The position numbers and the translations under genes are program-made. Shown here in pieces: positions 1-4,814 of a stretch of 33,064 nt of DNA. The DNA comes from Spirochaetae bacterium HGW-Spirochaetae-5. Lineage in GTDB: Bacteria > Spirochaetota > UBA4802 > UBA5550. Each line of letters opens with the position of its first letter. Position 1 is the first letter of the stretch. The notes beneath the pieces are model-generated. The model was given only the letters and a program-made list of their open reading frames with translations, had not been told where the DNA came from and did not search any database. The DNA is taken from contig PGXT01000017.1 in the NCBI GenBank assembly GCA_002839285.1, forward strand, positions 957 through 34,020, written 5' to 3'.

Positions 1-95
1 AAAAGAAAAATCTGTTTTCTATTACAAAAAGTTCAACCCAATCTTTGCGCGCATTCCGGCTGGCCATGTAACGTCGGCCGAAGCATTGCAGATAA
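1..95 (-). mobile_element. Partial ORF-less cassette at left edge (cassette A)
   Basis: This is the start (minus strand) of a further cassette beyond attC1, cut off by the window edge. Positions 3-87 match 2241-2325 at a constant offset of 2238. From 23 to 87 there is a single mismatch (position 34). The copy therefore has the same first 85 bases as the ORF-less cassette next to the attI-like site, while the outermost boundary bases differ (GCAGATAAC here, TCGTACAAC there). No coding region is supported. Cassette identity is inferred from the repeat and from attC1 ending at this boundary. Confidence 0.7.
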
Positions 96-189
96 CGTCG
101 TGCTTACCCGAAGTTGCGCGGTCTTTTGCGCAATTTGCCGCAGGCCAAGCGAGGTACTCCGAGCGCAGCGGGTAAGCTTTGTTATATGC
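88..189 (-). repeat. attC-like recombination site 1
   Basis: On the minus strand the site opens with GCATATAACAAAGCTTACCCG and closes with CGGGTAAGCACGACGTTATC, which pair as inverted arms with a short bulge. AAC and GTT cores in this arrangement are the hallmark of integron attC sites, with G^TT exchange expected between plus positions 95 and 96. The interior carries a TTGCGC/GCGCAA hairpin and the block GGTACTCCG shared with the other two sites. It lies 3' of the 914-324 gene, where a cassette's attC belongs. The assignment rests on structure and position, not on a covariance-model search. Confidence 0.85.
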
Positions 190-992
190 TGAAAGCTCAT
201 TTACAAAAAGTTTTGTACAAGCGGAGCAAGGACGCGTAGCTTGAAACTTTAAGTAATATTTCACAAACCTATTAAAATAAAGTTTGGATTACATATAACA
301 GATGCTGATTTTGTAATAATTGTTTATCTCTTCATCCACTTATTCGTAGAAGGATTATAGACTAACCCCTTACCTTTAATGTATTTGTTGATAAAATAAT
401 ACAATTTTTGATTTCTAAAGCTATATTTCCCGGAACCATAAGAAACAATAAAAAGACTAAAAAAAACTTTACTGTTAATAACAGATTTACTGTATAAATC
501 AAAAATATCTATATCTTTAACTCCATAGAGGGTTACTTCAACTGAATCACTTTTGATACTATCATTAAATGTATCACTACTTAATTTTATCAAATCACTG
601 TTAGCTTTGCTATGTAATGTTATTACATATTTACTACCATATTGGCCTGTTGATGGATTTGGAATATATGTATCTTTTTTTAAGATATCCATAAATTCTT
701 TTATTATTTTTTTATCATAAATTGCTAAATATGAGTAATTGTTATTTTCGTATATTACAATTGAAATTTTATCTATCTCTCTATTTATAACATTTTGAAG
801 CATAGCTATTTGATTTTTATACCTCTCTTCCCATGAGGGCATTGTTAGATGAAAGTAAGCAAAAAGCGAAAGAATTACGATCGTTATAGCAATAAATAAA
901 TTAATAATTTTCATAATCCTCATTTATAAGTTAAATTGTCTAATGAGCCCACGGATGGGCGATTAAAAAGTTTTTGAGCTTTTTGCATATAA
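96..992 (-). mobile_element. Integron-like cassette B (196-aa protein)
   Basis: The unit runs between two predicted G^TT exchange points and holds one minus-strand gene followed by attC1. The two ends of this cassette are inverted copies of each other: plus strand from 181 reads GTTATATGCTGAAAGCTCA, and minus strand from 993 reads GTTATATGCAAAAAGCTCA. The body is AT-rich, in contrast with the GC-rich attC. Positions 190-323 between the gene's stop and attC1 hold no gene. Confidence 0.75.
324..914 (-). CDS. Cassette-borne hypothetical protein with N-terminal membrane anchor
   Basis: I do not recognise this protein. It has about 196 residues. A hydrophobic segment over the first 25 residues suggests a signal anchor or uncleaved signal peptide, and the rest is hydrophilic, lysine- and serine-rich and predicted to lie outside the cytoplasm. 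I chose the ATG at 914 rather than the one at 923, because GAGG then sits five bases upstream; starting at 923 would place that motif inside the gene. The gene is AT-rich, as cassette genes of uncertain origin often are. It stops 135 bases before attC1, and no other gene lies in the cassette. Function cannot be inferred. Confidence 0.7.
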   Translation of the reverse strand: MKIINLFIAITIVILSLFAYFHLTMPSWEERYKNQIAMLQNVINREIDKISIVIYENNNYSYLAIYDKKIIKEFMDILKKDTYIPNPSTGQYGSKYVITLHSKANSDLIKLSSDTFNDSIKSDSVEVTLYGVKDIDIFDLYSKSVINSKVFFSLFIVSYGSGKYSFRNQKLYYFINKYIKGKGLVYNPSTNKWMKR

Positions 993-1142
993 CGTCTTGC
1001 TTATACGACGCTTGCCAAGTTTACTGAAAATTTTATATTCTATAAGTTTACACAGTTCAAGAAGTTTTTTGCCACTAAGAGTGGCAAGTGTGCCGAAGGC
1101 CAAGCGAGGTACTCCGAGCGCAGCGTATAAGCTTTGTTAGCT
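985..1142 (-). repeat. attC-like recombination site 2
   Basis: The minus strand opens with AGCTAACAAAGCTTATACG and closes with CGTATAAGCAAGACGTTATATGC, which pair apart from a short bulge. The inner part includes TTGCCACT...AGTGGCAAG-type complementarity and the conserved GGCCAAGCGAGGTACTCCG block shared almost exactly with attC1. At about 158 bases it is longer than attC1 (about 100), a normal kind of attC length variation. It lies 3' of the 1807-1337 gene. Confidence 0.85.
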
Positions 1143-1336
1143 GAAGTGCTGAGCAACATTTTCAAAGAAAGCGAACACATGGACGTGTGAGCGATGAGGT
1201 TAATTTACCTCATTATTAATGAAATAATTTTTTTTATTGGCTGTAAGAACTTCTTTCAATGTTTATGGCTGTTTATATCGTATTATATTCATTAACTTTT
1301 AAAATCATTATATATGATTATAAATAGAAAATGAAC

Positions 1337-1807
1337 CTAGACACTTGAAAGTCCTATAAACAATAGAATTATACCTATAATACAAATAATAAATGGTAAC
1401 CATGCAAAGAAACTCATTGGATCATCATTTTTAAATATTTTTTCTTGTAATATTCTTGAACTTACTGTAATTATAAAACCAGCGATAAACATAATAAACG
1501 AATGGACTTTCGAAATAGATTGAAAACCGAATGGTTTTTCACTATTACTAAAATAAATCATATATGTGAATAATAAAATAAATAGAATAATTAAAAACAT
1601 TGCTAATGCTACTATAATCCATATAATTAATGAATTTATAACTGACCAATCTACGTGAGATAAGAAAAATATATAAATAATACAACCTGTCACCATAATT
1701 AGACATAATATTAATATTTGTATAATAACTGGAAAAGTGGCAAACAAATCAAATACACATTTAAAAATTGATATATTGATAATATGCAAAAAAATATTTT
1801 CTAACAT
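1337..1807 (-). CDS. Cassette-borne four-helix membrane protein
   Basis: I do not recognise this 156-residue protein. It has about four hydrophobic segments (roughly residues 25-50, 55-88, 100-118 and 133-155) separated by short loops, with a charged loop EKIFKNDD before the last helix. The ATG at 1807 has only a weak GAG upstream. Base composition is very AT-rich, well below the neighbouring chromosome, which fits a transferred cassette. It is the only gene in cassette C and ends about 195 bases before attC2. Small polytopic membrane proteins are common among integron cassettes, but nothing here points to a defined role. Confidence 0.65.
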   Translation of the reverse strand: MLENIFLHIINISIFKCVFDLFATFPVIIQILILCLIMVTGCIIYIFFLSHVDWSVINSLIIWIIVALAMFLIILFILLFTYMIYFSNSEKPFGFQSISKVHSFIMFIAGFIITVSSRILQEKIFKNDDPMSFFAWLPFIICIIGIILLFIGLSSV

Positions 1808-1873
1808 TATCTCAAACTCTTAATTTAAAATTTTAGAAGCTTTAGTTTTCTTTTTTTTGTTTTCTTATAGTAG

Positions 1874-1894
1874 CCGGCAGGACGCCGGTTTTTT
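1874..1894 (+). terminator. Hairpin with T-run, plus orientation, inside cassette C
   Basis: CCGGC and GCCGG arms separated by five bases are followed directly by six T on the plus strand. It lies in the leader between the cassette boundary and the start of the 156-residue membrane protein, in antisense orientation to that gene. It could stop antisense transcription, but the stem is only five base pairs. Confidence 0.35.
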
Positions 1895-1918
1895 AATCAA
1901 ATAGTTAGCTCAGCATTT

Positions 1919-2079
1919 CAGCTAACGTCTTGGCTAACTGACGTTAGCGAGTTTTACAACTTATTTTTTTTAAAATCTTTTTGCCAGGTACTAAAAATAT
2001 TCAGCCACATTAGGTTGCTAATGTGGCCCTTAAGGCCCAAGCCGGTACTCCGGCGCCGCTGTTAGCCTTTGTTGTACGA
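1919..2079 (-). repeat. attC-like recombination site 3
   Basis: The minus strand opens with CGTACAACAAAGGCTAACAGCG and closes with AGACGTTAGC, preceded by the pairing arm GTTAGCC; GACGTTAGC is very like classical attC 3' ends. The inner arms CCACATTAG/CTAATGTGG form a second hairpin. The conserved block appears as GCCGGTACTCCGGCGCCGC. The site is about 157 bases long and follows the ORF-less cassette D. Confidence 0.85.
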
Positions 2080-2333
2080 AGTGCGTAGGCCATCTTTTAG
2101 TGGAATGGACAGCCGGAATGCGCGCCCCTCAAACAAAACTTCGAAAGCCGAAAAAACGTCGATCGCTTGCCAACCAGCTGTATTGCAATTAACCGAAAAG
2201 CCAAATGAATCTTGTTTTCAACTTTTTACAAATATGAAATAAGAAAAATCCTTTTTCATTTACAAAAAGTTTAACCCAATCTTTGCGCGCATTCCGGCTG
2301 GCCATGTAACGTCGGCCGAAGCATTTCGTACAA
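1926..2333 (-). mobile_element. ORF-less integron-like cassette D
   Basis: This is the first cassette after the attI-like site, ending in attC3. No ORF of meaningful length is present; the longest minus-strand reading from the boundary stops after 17 codons. The ends form an imperfect inverted repeat of about 50 bases: plus strand from 2071 (GTTGTACGAAGTGCGTAGGCC) and minus strand from 2334 (GTTGTACGAAATGCTTCGGCC), followed on both sides by CAGCCGGAATGCGCGC (2110-2125 and 2285-2300). The right part is repeated at 3-87. It resembles a MITE held as a cassette and could also carry a promoter or a small RNA. Confidence 0.7.
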
Positions 2334-2404
2334 CTTTCTCTTATGCGACTTATGTCGTAAAAGAAGAAAAGAGAGAGAAAAATGCGTATTGTGTCGTGTA
2401 AGAA
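2334..2404 (-). other. attI-like primary insertion site with two direct repeats
   Basis: The segment lies between the recombinase stop codon and the first cassette boundary (G^TT at 2333/2334). It holds two 16-base direct repeats, ATGCGACTTATGTCGT at 2343-2358 and ATGCGTATTGTGTCGT at 2382-2397, identical at 13 of 16 positions and 39 bases apart. The proximal copy contains a CGAC/GTCG inverted repeat. Classical attI sites also carry two direct repeats that bind the integrase strongly next to the exchange point. Calling it attI is inference from position and architecture. Confidence 0.6.
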
Positions 2405-3475
2405 TCATAAATCTAGGGGAGACTTAATATTCTTAATTTTTCCTGTGCTTACGTGAGTATAGATCATTGTTGTATTTGGGCTGCTGTGTCCAAGCAATTC
2501 CTGTATATATCTTACATCTACCCCTTGTTCAAGCAGATGTGTGGCAAAGCTATGGCGCAGCGTATGGACAGATACTCTTCTGGTAATACCGGCTTTAACC
2601 ACGGCCCGTTCAAAAACATGCTGAACTGAACGGGAGTGTATGGGATATCTTCTCTCCTGGCCTTCGAATAGCCAGTCATCAGGTCGGTATTGTAATAAGT
2701 ATTCTTCCAGGAGTGATTTGAATTTTTCAGACAGTATTGTAGTGCGGTCTTTTCTCCCTTTAGCGGAACGGATATTGATCATCCCCCGTTCGAGATCGAT
2801 ATCTTTTATTTTCATTGTCACAGCTTCATTAAGACGGAGACCAGCGGAATAAATAAGCATTATGATTGTTTTATGTTTAACATTGGAAATATTGTCAATT
2901 ATTCTCAGCACTTCATTCTTACTCATGACAACCGGGAGTTTTTTATCTTTTTTTGGTGATTTAATCTCATAAATAAAGTCTTTACCCAGCATTTCACCAT
3001 AAGAAAACTTAACAGCATTAATTATTATCTGTACAGTAGAAGTGCTTATTTCGTCTTCACCGATTTTATTGAAGATAAACTCGGTTATATCCTCCTGCTT
3101 AATCTCCTCCGGTGTTTTGCCTGATTTTTTCAGCAGTTCGCTGTTGTAGTGGATATAGCTGTTTATGGTATTTCGACTGTATCTTCTAACTGTCATTATC
3201 TTTGCAAGATTGATAAGAAATCTTTCATTTTTAAGCAAAGTTGAACTGGCGTATTCATCACTACCCATATGTACATCAGCACCGGTTTTCAGTGCAGACT
3301 CAAGTATAGCATCAAGATGCTCTTTTCTGTCGGAGATAAACCATGTTTTGGATATGTGATCCCATTTTCTCCCCGGGATCCCTCTTACAGCTTTGAGCAG
3401 ATCTTCATTATATGGTATTTTGACCGCCAGCAGACCTGATTTACAGGATGTAATATTTACTTTATCATTACTCAT
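2405..3475 (-). CDS. Tyrosine recombinase of the integron-like array (XerD-like spacing)
   Basis: A tyrosine site-specific recombinase, probably the enzyme acting on the attC-like and attI-like sites. I prefer the ATG at 3475 (356 residues) because AAGG lies eight bases upstream; the reading frame extends in-frame to an ATG at 3562, whose upstream sequence shows no ribosome-binding site. In the 356-residue numbering the catalytic set is R214 (SAGLRLNE), K239 (SAKGRKDR), H304 and R307 (HTLRHSFATHLL), H330 (LLGHS) and Y339 (MIYTHV). The C-terminus SPLDL resembles IntI. R214 to H304 is 90 residues, close to XerD (about 96) and far from IntI1 (about 131), so the IntI-specific insertion is absent. 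Residues 8-50 form an extra N-terminal module (VKIPYNE...GRKWD...KTWFI) reminiscent of HARP-type domains. The gene reads towards the cassettes. Confidence 0.9.
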   Translation of the reverse strand: MSNDKVNITSCKSGLLAVKIPYNEDLLKAVRGIPGRKWDHISKTWFISDRKEHLDAILESALKTGADVHMGSDEYASSTLLKNERFLINLAKIMTVRRYSRNTINSYIHYNSELLKKSGKTPEEIKQEDITEFIFNKIGEDEISTSTVQIIINAVKFSYGEMLGKDFIYEIKSPKKDKKLPVVMSKNEVLRIIDNISNVKHKTIIMLIYSAGLRLNEAVTMKIKDIDLERGMINIRSAKGRKDRTTILSEKFKSLLEEYLLQYRPDDWLFEGQERRYPIHSRSVQHVFERAVVKAGITRRVSVHTLRHSFATHLLEQGVDVRYIQELLGHSSPNTTMIYTHVSTGKIKNIKSPLDL

Positions 3476-4073: not shown

Positions 4074-4448
4074 GTGAAAAGGGTATATTCATTAAAAAGC
4101 AGGGAATCGTATAAGTTTATTTTTTTTAAAGGGAAGAAGATAAAAGGCAGGGGTAATATCATTTTTGTTTTAAAGAACAGCGCCATTGATAATTATAAAA
4201 ATGAATCAGCTTTCAGTGATATTAAGATCGGGATTGCCGTTGGCAAGAGATTAGGGAAAGCTAATAAAAGGAACTGGATAAAGAGACGTATCAGGGCTGT
4301 CTGCAGCGAGTTAATAGTACAGATGAATGATGGATTTTCAATAATAATAAAACCCGGCCAGGGAAATGAAATGATGAGTTTTGAAGAACTCAAAAGTGAT
4401 CTTGTTACACTTTTCAGGAATGCTGGAGTGCTGAATGGGAGCAGTTAA
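4074..4448 (+). CDS. rnpA: Ribonuclease P protein component
   Basis: Protein subunit of RNase P, which helps the RNA subunit bind and trim the 5' leader of precursor tRNAs. It has 124 residues, normal for the family. The signature [11 protein letters not shown] (family RNxxKRxxRE) is present around residues 64-74, and the N-terminal [16 protein letters not shown] matches the usual start. The start is GTG at 4074, since the ATG two bases earlier runs straight into a stop; the ribosome-binding site is weak. The 3' end overlaps yidD by 14 bases, which suggests translational coupling. Confidence 0.95.
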
Positions 4449-4716
4449 AATAATAATGGATTTTATCGGGGCGGCTCTCTCCGGTTTTGCTGTATATATA
4501 ATTAAGTTTTATAAATTTTTTATTTCTCCTTTATTGCCGGCAGCGTGCAGATATTACCCTACATGCTCCGTTTACTCGATTGAGGCGATTAAAAAGTTTG
4601 GTTTAATTAAGGGCGGATTTCTCTCCATTAAAAGGATTATAACGTGTAATCCTTTGTGTGAGGGGGGATTTGATCCTGTTCCCGAAGTTTTTAGTTTAAA
4701 AAAAATAGTTTCATAA
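4435..4716 (+). CDS. yidD: Membrane protein insertion efficiency factor YidD
   Basis: A 93-residue YidD-family protein. It assists YidC-dependent insertion of inner-membrane proteins and associates with the membrane through an N-terminal amphipathic or hydrophobic helix. The family signature is clear: [11 protein letters not shown], then [15 protein letters not shown] with paired cysteines, and [13 protein letters not shown]. The ATG at 4435 has GGAG six bases upstream; an ATG at 4456 is a possible shorter start. It overlaps rnpA and lies 98 bases before yidC, the usual order in this cluster. Confidence 0.95.
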
Positions 4717-4814
4717 ACTTTTCTGAATACCTGCCTTAACAAACCCCTCTGTTTCACATCTGAGAATATTAGTCTATTAATTGTATAAATAATTTCGCAC
4801 ATAAGGAATAACAA

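Follow-up and report, generated by a model that had tools for sequence, protein, structure and literature searches.

The locus studied here raises the question of whether gene cassettes can be captured by a tyrosine recombinase that lacks the insertion specific to integron integrases (IntI). Within this insertion, the I2 helix is held to be the element that allowed a recombinase of double strands to accept folded single strands. The window, by which we mean the whole stretch of 33,064 nucleotides analyzed (C286:957-34020), belongs to a spirochaete genome of 4.7 Mb in 309 contigs. A preliminary description of its sequence left two possibilities, a separate solution to cassette capture or an IntI relative that had lost the insertion. 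According to our in silico analysis, the window probably carries, as we conclude with good confidence, a chromosomal integron-like gene-capture system with its own I2-less integrase, presumably active in recombination.

A minus-strand cassette array with three attC sites and an attI-like site occupies window positions 1-2407. The integrase gene (2405-3475, minus strand; 356 aa), recognized from sequence, profiles, alignment and an AlphaFold model, abuts the attI-like site with its 3′ end, and the array follows in the reading direction of the gene. On its other side lie what we take, by eye, to be rpmH-rnpA-yidD-yidC-like neighbours. The attI-like site (2332-2407, minus strand), which separates the stop codon of the integrase gene from cassette 1, contains two ACGACA(C/T)AA motifs and a G/TT cleavage point at 2332-2334. 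This region of about 75 bp is conserved with the relative in G003, and a similar region is found in most relatives; its identity as attI was assigned by position and conservation, and it would presumably function as such.

All cassettes lie on the minus strand and span G/TT to G/TT. Cassette 1 (1926-2333), delimited by its G/TT bounds and by a start that pairs with its own R″ over 21 nt, has no convincing ORF; its attC lies at 1924-2073. Cassette 2 (993-1925; attC at 991-1138) has an ORF at 1337-1807 encoding a hydrophobic protein of 156 aa, and cassette 3 (96-992; attC at 94-183) has one at 324-923 encoding 199 aa, both without a family match. The three attC sites were located by arm alignment and folding, and that of cassette 3 also by a covariance model. 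Only the start of cassette 4 (1-95) falls inside the window; beyond its first 9 nt it shares about 90% identity with the corresponding part of cassette 1. Cassette ORFs have a GC content of 22-25% vs 41% for the flanking chromosome. The attC-like and attI-like sites and AT-rich minus-strand cassettes of the preliminary description are thus confirmed by end pairing over 19-21 nt, by folding scores and by homologous arrays elsewhere. We also observed that most differences between the two ORF-less cassette starts (3-96 and 2241-2334) fall in the first 9 nt, which coincide exactly with the R box; this would not be expected if all sequence beyond G/TT moved together with the cassette.

The array continues outside the window. 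To its left the contig runs on for 956 bases. A scaffold gap in this part interrupts one of two additional attC sites, and the other site is truncated. The leftmost site (L014, ~40-190) has a 13-nt deletion in the right arm that removes the L′ stem, and is either a decayed site or an assembly fault. Covariance-model searches with window-type sites (E <= 0.01) detected nine further attC sites on C179, C181, C80 and C277, and the attC models gave 12 matches in fragments of this genome; as these counts rest on such searches, at least nine sites lie beyond the window contig. The array is therefore long and broken by assembly. Its off-window fragments carry toxin-antitoxin-like cassettes, a content typical of chromosomal integrons. 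By eye rather than by profile, we noted HigBA-, RelE/HigA-, HicAB- and VapBC-like pairs in cassettes of L214 (2924-3520 and 6958-7657), L215 (872-1355 and 2680-3078), L216 (2758-3386) and L217 (1565-2235). Another cassette-borne protein, of 140 aa (L014 reverse complement, 4316-4738), is TIR-like by eye. Rfam searches returned nothing at gathering thresholds.

The recombinase is catalytically complete and reads towards the array, as had been proposed: it matches PF00589 with 154 bits, and the six active-site residues R214, K239, H304, R307, H330 and Y339 align. It comprises a SAM-like core-binding domain (aa 90-166) and a catalytic domain (aa 183-343), preceded by a HARP-like stretch (aa 17-46; 21 bits, under Pfam's 25), and visual inspection shows a similar stretch in many relatives as well as in an Elusimicrobia IntI (L035). 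Since DNA structures are what HARP domains bind, this N-terminal stretch may matter for folded sites. The distance from R214 to H304 is 90 residues, as first reported, and in the final alignment the distance from the catalytic arginine to HxxR is 130-131 in 28 of 28 IntIs and 89-96 in each of the 64 other proteins, which are Xer or I2-less relatives. The 41 absent residues form two blocks of 31 and 10, which the alignment identifies as the I2 and beta4-5 regions. The extrahelical bases touched by the I2 helix and the beta4-5 block of VchIntIA are G20″ and T12″ (PMC3053210). In the alignment the window enzyme also lacks the His-His that makes the second of these contacts, and neither the catalytic domain alignment nor the AlphaFold model (pLDDT 82, pTM 0.56) places an I2 insertion elsewhere; the model has no extra helix at the I2 position. 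As cited in PMC7790495, Messier and Roy found that IntI1 lost its function when the additional domain was deleted, so that an I2-less enzyme acting on attC must differ in detail.

The loss of the insertion from a true IntI, the second of the two possibilities, would fit the structural resemblance: among solved structures, IntI4 (2a3v, Z 22.5) is the nearest to the recombinase in fold and sequence, with XerA as the next PDB match of the model. The window enzyme shares with IntI the catalytic residues, the fold, the C-terminal SPLD motif and the genetic setting, but lacks the I2 helix and the beta4-5 block and scores under the cut-off of the family profile TIGR02249 (208 bits vs 265 in NCBIfam; relatives 187-216, one Treponema-type IntI 493). 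A tree built without the insertion columns argues against such a loss. In this tree IntI forms a 100/100 clade that excludes the window enzyme, Xer proteins form a 100/99 clade, and the I2-less proteins fall between. Grouping the window clade with inverted Treponema-type IntI, the one such placement tested, was rejected (AU p = 1e-7), and we regard a secondary loss as highly improbable. The likeness to Treponema denticola noted beforehand thus holds for the layout and not for the enzyme. The Treponema reverse integron (PMC3607928) shares with the window the phylum, an integrase reading towards attI and co-directional cassettes; however, the Treponema-type IntIs examined have the insertion (131 residues), belong to a different clade, and are accompanied by attC sites with paired bulges.

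When the tree is rooted on Xer, IntI is nested among the I2-less enzymes, which are united in 0% of 200 bootstrap trees, although the AU test does not reject a tree that unites them all (p = 0.47). One tentative reading, to which we give rather less than an even chance, is that the I2-less integrons are a surviving ancestral grade: capture on bulge-free folded sites would have come first, in a Xer-like recombinase, and IntI would have arisen within this grade, gaining I2 and the extrahelical bases of attC together.

The attC sites themselves are atypical, a feature absent from the preliminary description. Those of I2-less arrays have the R″, L″, L′ and R′ arms, the AAC/GTT cores and the G/TT boundary. 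Two or more left-arm extrahelical bases were found in none of 27 such sites vs 41 of 65 sites from IntI arrays, and one or more left-arm bulges in 4/27 vs 61/65; these counts come from our own scanner and sites within one array are related, not independent, so that Fisher values overstate the evidence. All arrays that were classified follow this split between sites with and without bulges. The L stem of I2-less arrays is uninterrupted and mostly 9-11 bp long, and the R-L spacers are asymmetric (2-3 nt vs 5-6 nt; 1 and 5 in a few). IntI arrays, of the Treponema type and others, show two single-base bulges about six bases apart and symmetric spacers of 3/3 or 4/4. Two covariance models were used in place of a mixed one (R1), in which misalignment between sites with 3/5 and with 2/6 spacers left no more than 5 base pairs. 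Searches were run with default filters, since a search with filters off missed even training sites, apparently by losing matches with long insertions. The models of I2-less type gave no match in 322 kb of IntI-array DNA.

Cassette ends of this array type are also complementary beyond the R box. In the window, 19-21 nt at each cassette start can pair with the R″ end of the attC of that cassette, and in 12 cassettes of this type the median pairing was 18.5 nt, compared with 4 for mismatched pairs. The pattern is 9 bp, a 2-nt mismatch and 8 or more bp, whereas IntI arrays pair over 7-9 nt. Ten cassettes of a second set, in which some neighbours may not be true neighbours, gave a median score of 7.5 vs 5 for mismatched pairs; this set is more variable, which indicates that long pairing is common without being universal. 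When reconstituted as in a circular cassette, the sites fold much better than shuffled sequences (z -4.8 to -6.7), and the L stems covary.

These properties bear on how the sites are used. The same system could act on double-stranded or cruciform sites by ordinary two-strand exchange: stems free of bulges are reminiscent of double-stranded recombinase sites, palindromes such as TATACGCCATATGGCGTATA occur in attI-like regions, and the enzyme, besides lacking I2, is close to XerA. We consider this unlikely, because the end complementarity is specific to each cassette, extends beyond the R box with little shared sequence, and is accompanied by covarying stems. Complementarity and covariation together indicate selection for folding, whether into a cruciform or as a single strand. 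In the single-strand reading, which we prefer, the enzyme would join attI and a folded cassette site by exchanging one strand at G/TT, as in an integron. As the bulge-reading parts are gone from the enzyme and the corresponding bases from its sites, the strand would probably be chosen through the lopsided R-L loop; polarity would then be set by this asymmetric internal loop (1-3 vs 5-6 nt) and not by extrahelical bases, although the choice of strand is a guess. The longer, bipartite outer stem would hold the site of a circular cassette together. XerCD acting on CTX phage DNA sets a precedent: there, too, an I2-less enzyme works on a folded site that lacks extrahelical bases (PMC4792948). In the phage case, however, the recombinase is borrowed from the host and no cassette array is present, whereas here the gene is tied to attI and an array.

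An array whose adjacent, dedicated recombinase is not IntI could be called a CALIN, a cluster of attC sites lacking an integrase, under the usual definition by IntI profile (PMC9668308). In a rival reading, the recombinase would be an ordinary Xer-like neighbour and the cassettes a CALIN once moved by an IntI in trans. The window protein does exceed the cut-off of the XerA profile NF040815 (231.5 vs 220; relatives 192.7-218.6) while remaining under that for integron integrases, and like XerA, XerC and XerD, in which the R-to-H distance is mostly 92-96, it has no insertion; but Xer proteins form their separate clade and the window recombinase adjoins an attC array. Relatives of the recombinase were detected in 78 of 374 spirochaete genomes (E <= 1e-45), a count of hits not individually aligned, a few of which could be other recombinases. 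The gap is shared by close relatives (56-66% identity) in G003, G009, G014 and G016. Following the earlier suggestion to look for the gene and array together in related genomes, we saw arrays of this type next to about 18 relatives. Most are inverted, downstream on the same strand (G000, G002, G005, G010, G021, G022, G028, G066, G164, G216 and G358; in G037 beside a broken integrase gene). Others are divergent, upstream on the opposite strand (G004, G006, G017, G095 and G059, and, by covariance-model hits, G012 and G049); recombinases with 91-95 residues between R and H have their arrays in this position. Inverted and ordinary divergent layouts thus both occur among I2-less systems.

Some family members have no visible array; in particular none was detectable beside the long-flank relatives G020, G042, G136, G342 and G107. 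The contig end was nearer the array side in 19 of 21 genes of the inverted group (3′ of the gene) and in 10 of 10 of the divergent group (5′), as expected if repeated attC sites break assembly. Since G216 is on one contig, and G164 and G095 on two or three, the association is not an artefact of fragmentation. True IntI is also present in G028 and G059, which would suit mobilization in trans. However, no IntI above the NCBIfam cut-off was found in the window's genome and none is listed in the near-complete array-bearing genomes G216, G164, G095 and G049, the sites lack the bases that IntI reads, and the association recurs across many families with consistent geometry. An origin of these arrays as CALINs is, in our view, improbable. 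The I2-less integron-like system, a separate solution to cassette capture as originally suggested, is supported by the phylum-wide association with arrays, the absence of IntI from the genome and the altered sites, and appears to be a second and perhaps older route to what integrons do.

In the literature searched, which left preprints and most subscription papers outside, we found no earlier description of such a system; a prior description is possible. Treponema was named in 2013 as the only integron-bearing spirochaetes (PMC3607928), and IntegronFinder calls an integrase only on a match to an IntI-specific profile (PMC9668308), so that I2-less systems would be missed or called CALIN. I2-less arrays occur in many spirochaetes that are uncultured and also in some whose genomes are completely sequenced. 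A family that is widespread and has attI, cassettes and attC, and that has neither I2 nor the bases that I2 reads, offers natural material on the role of I2 and the origin of integrons.

Among relatives in Bacteroidota, Planctomycetota and Acidobacteriota (L026-L034), no site passed a strict bulge-free scan, and three weaker hits near L032 were rejected as not attC-like in appearance. In G162 (L258), a bulge-free attC array lies downstream of an I2-less recombinase in the opposite orientation. One genome, G028 (L139 and L156), combines a true IntI with an I2-less integrase that has its own bulge-free array. Finally, the contigs of several relatives (L110, L113, L102 and L151) end at the G/TT of attI or attC or no more than about 20 nt from it, as though that point were followed by several different sequences in the population.
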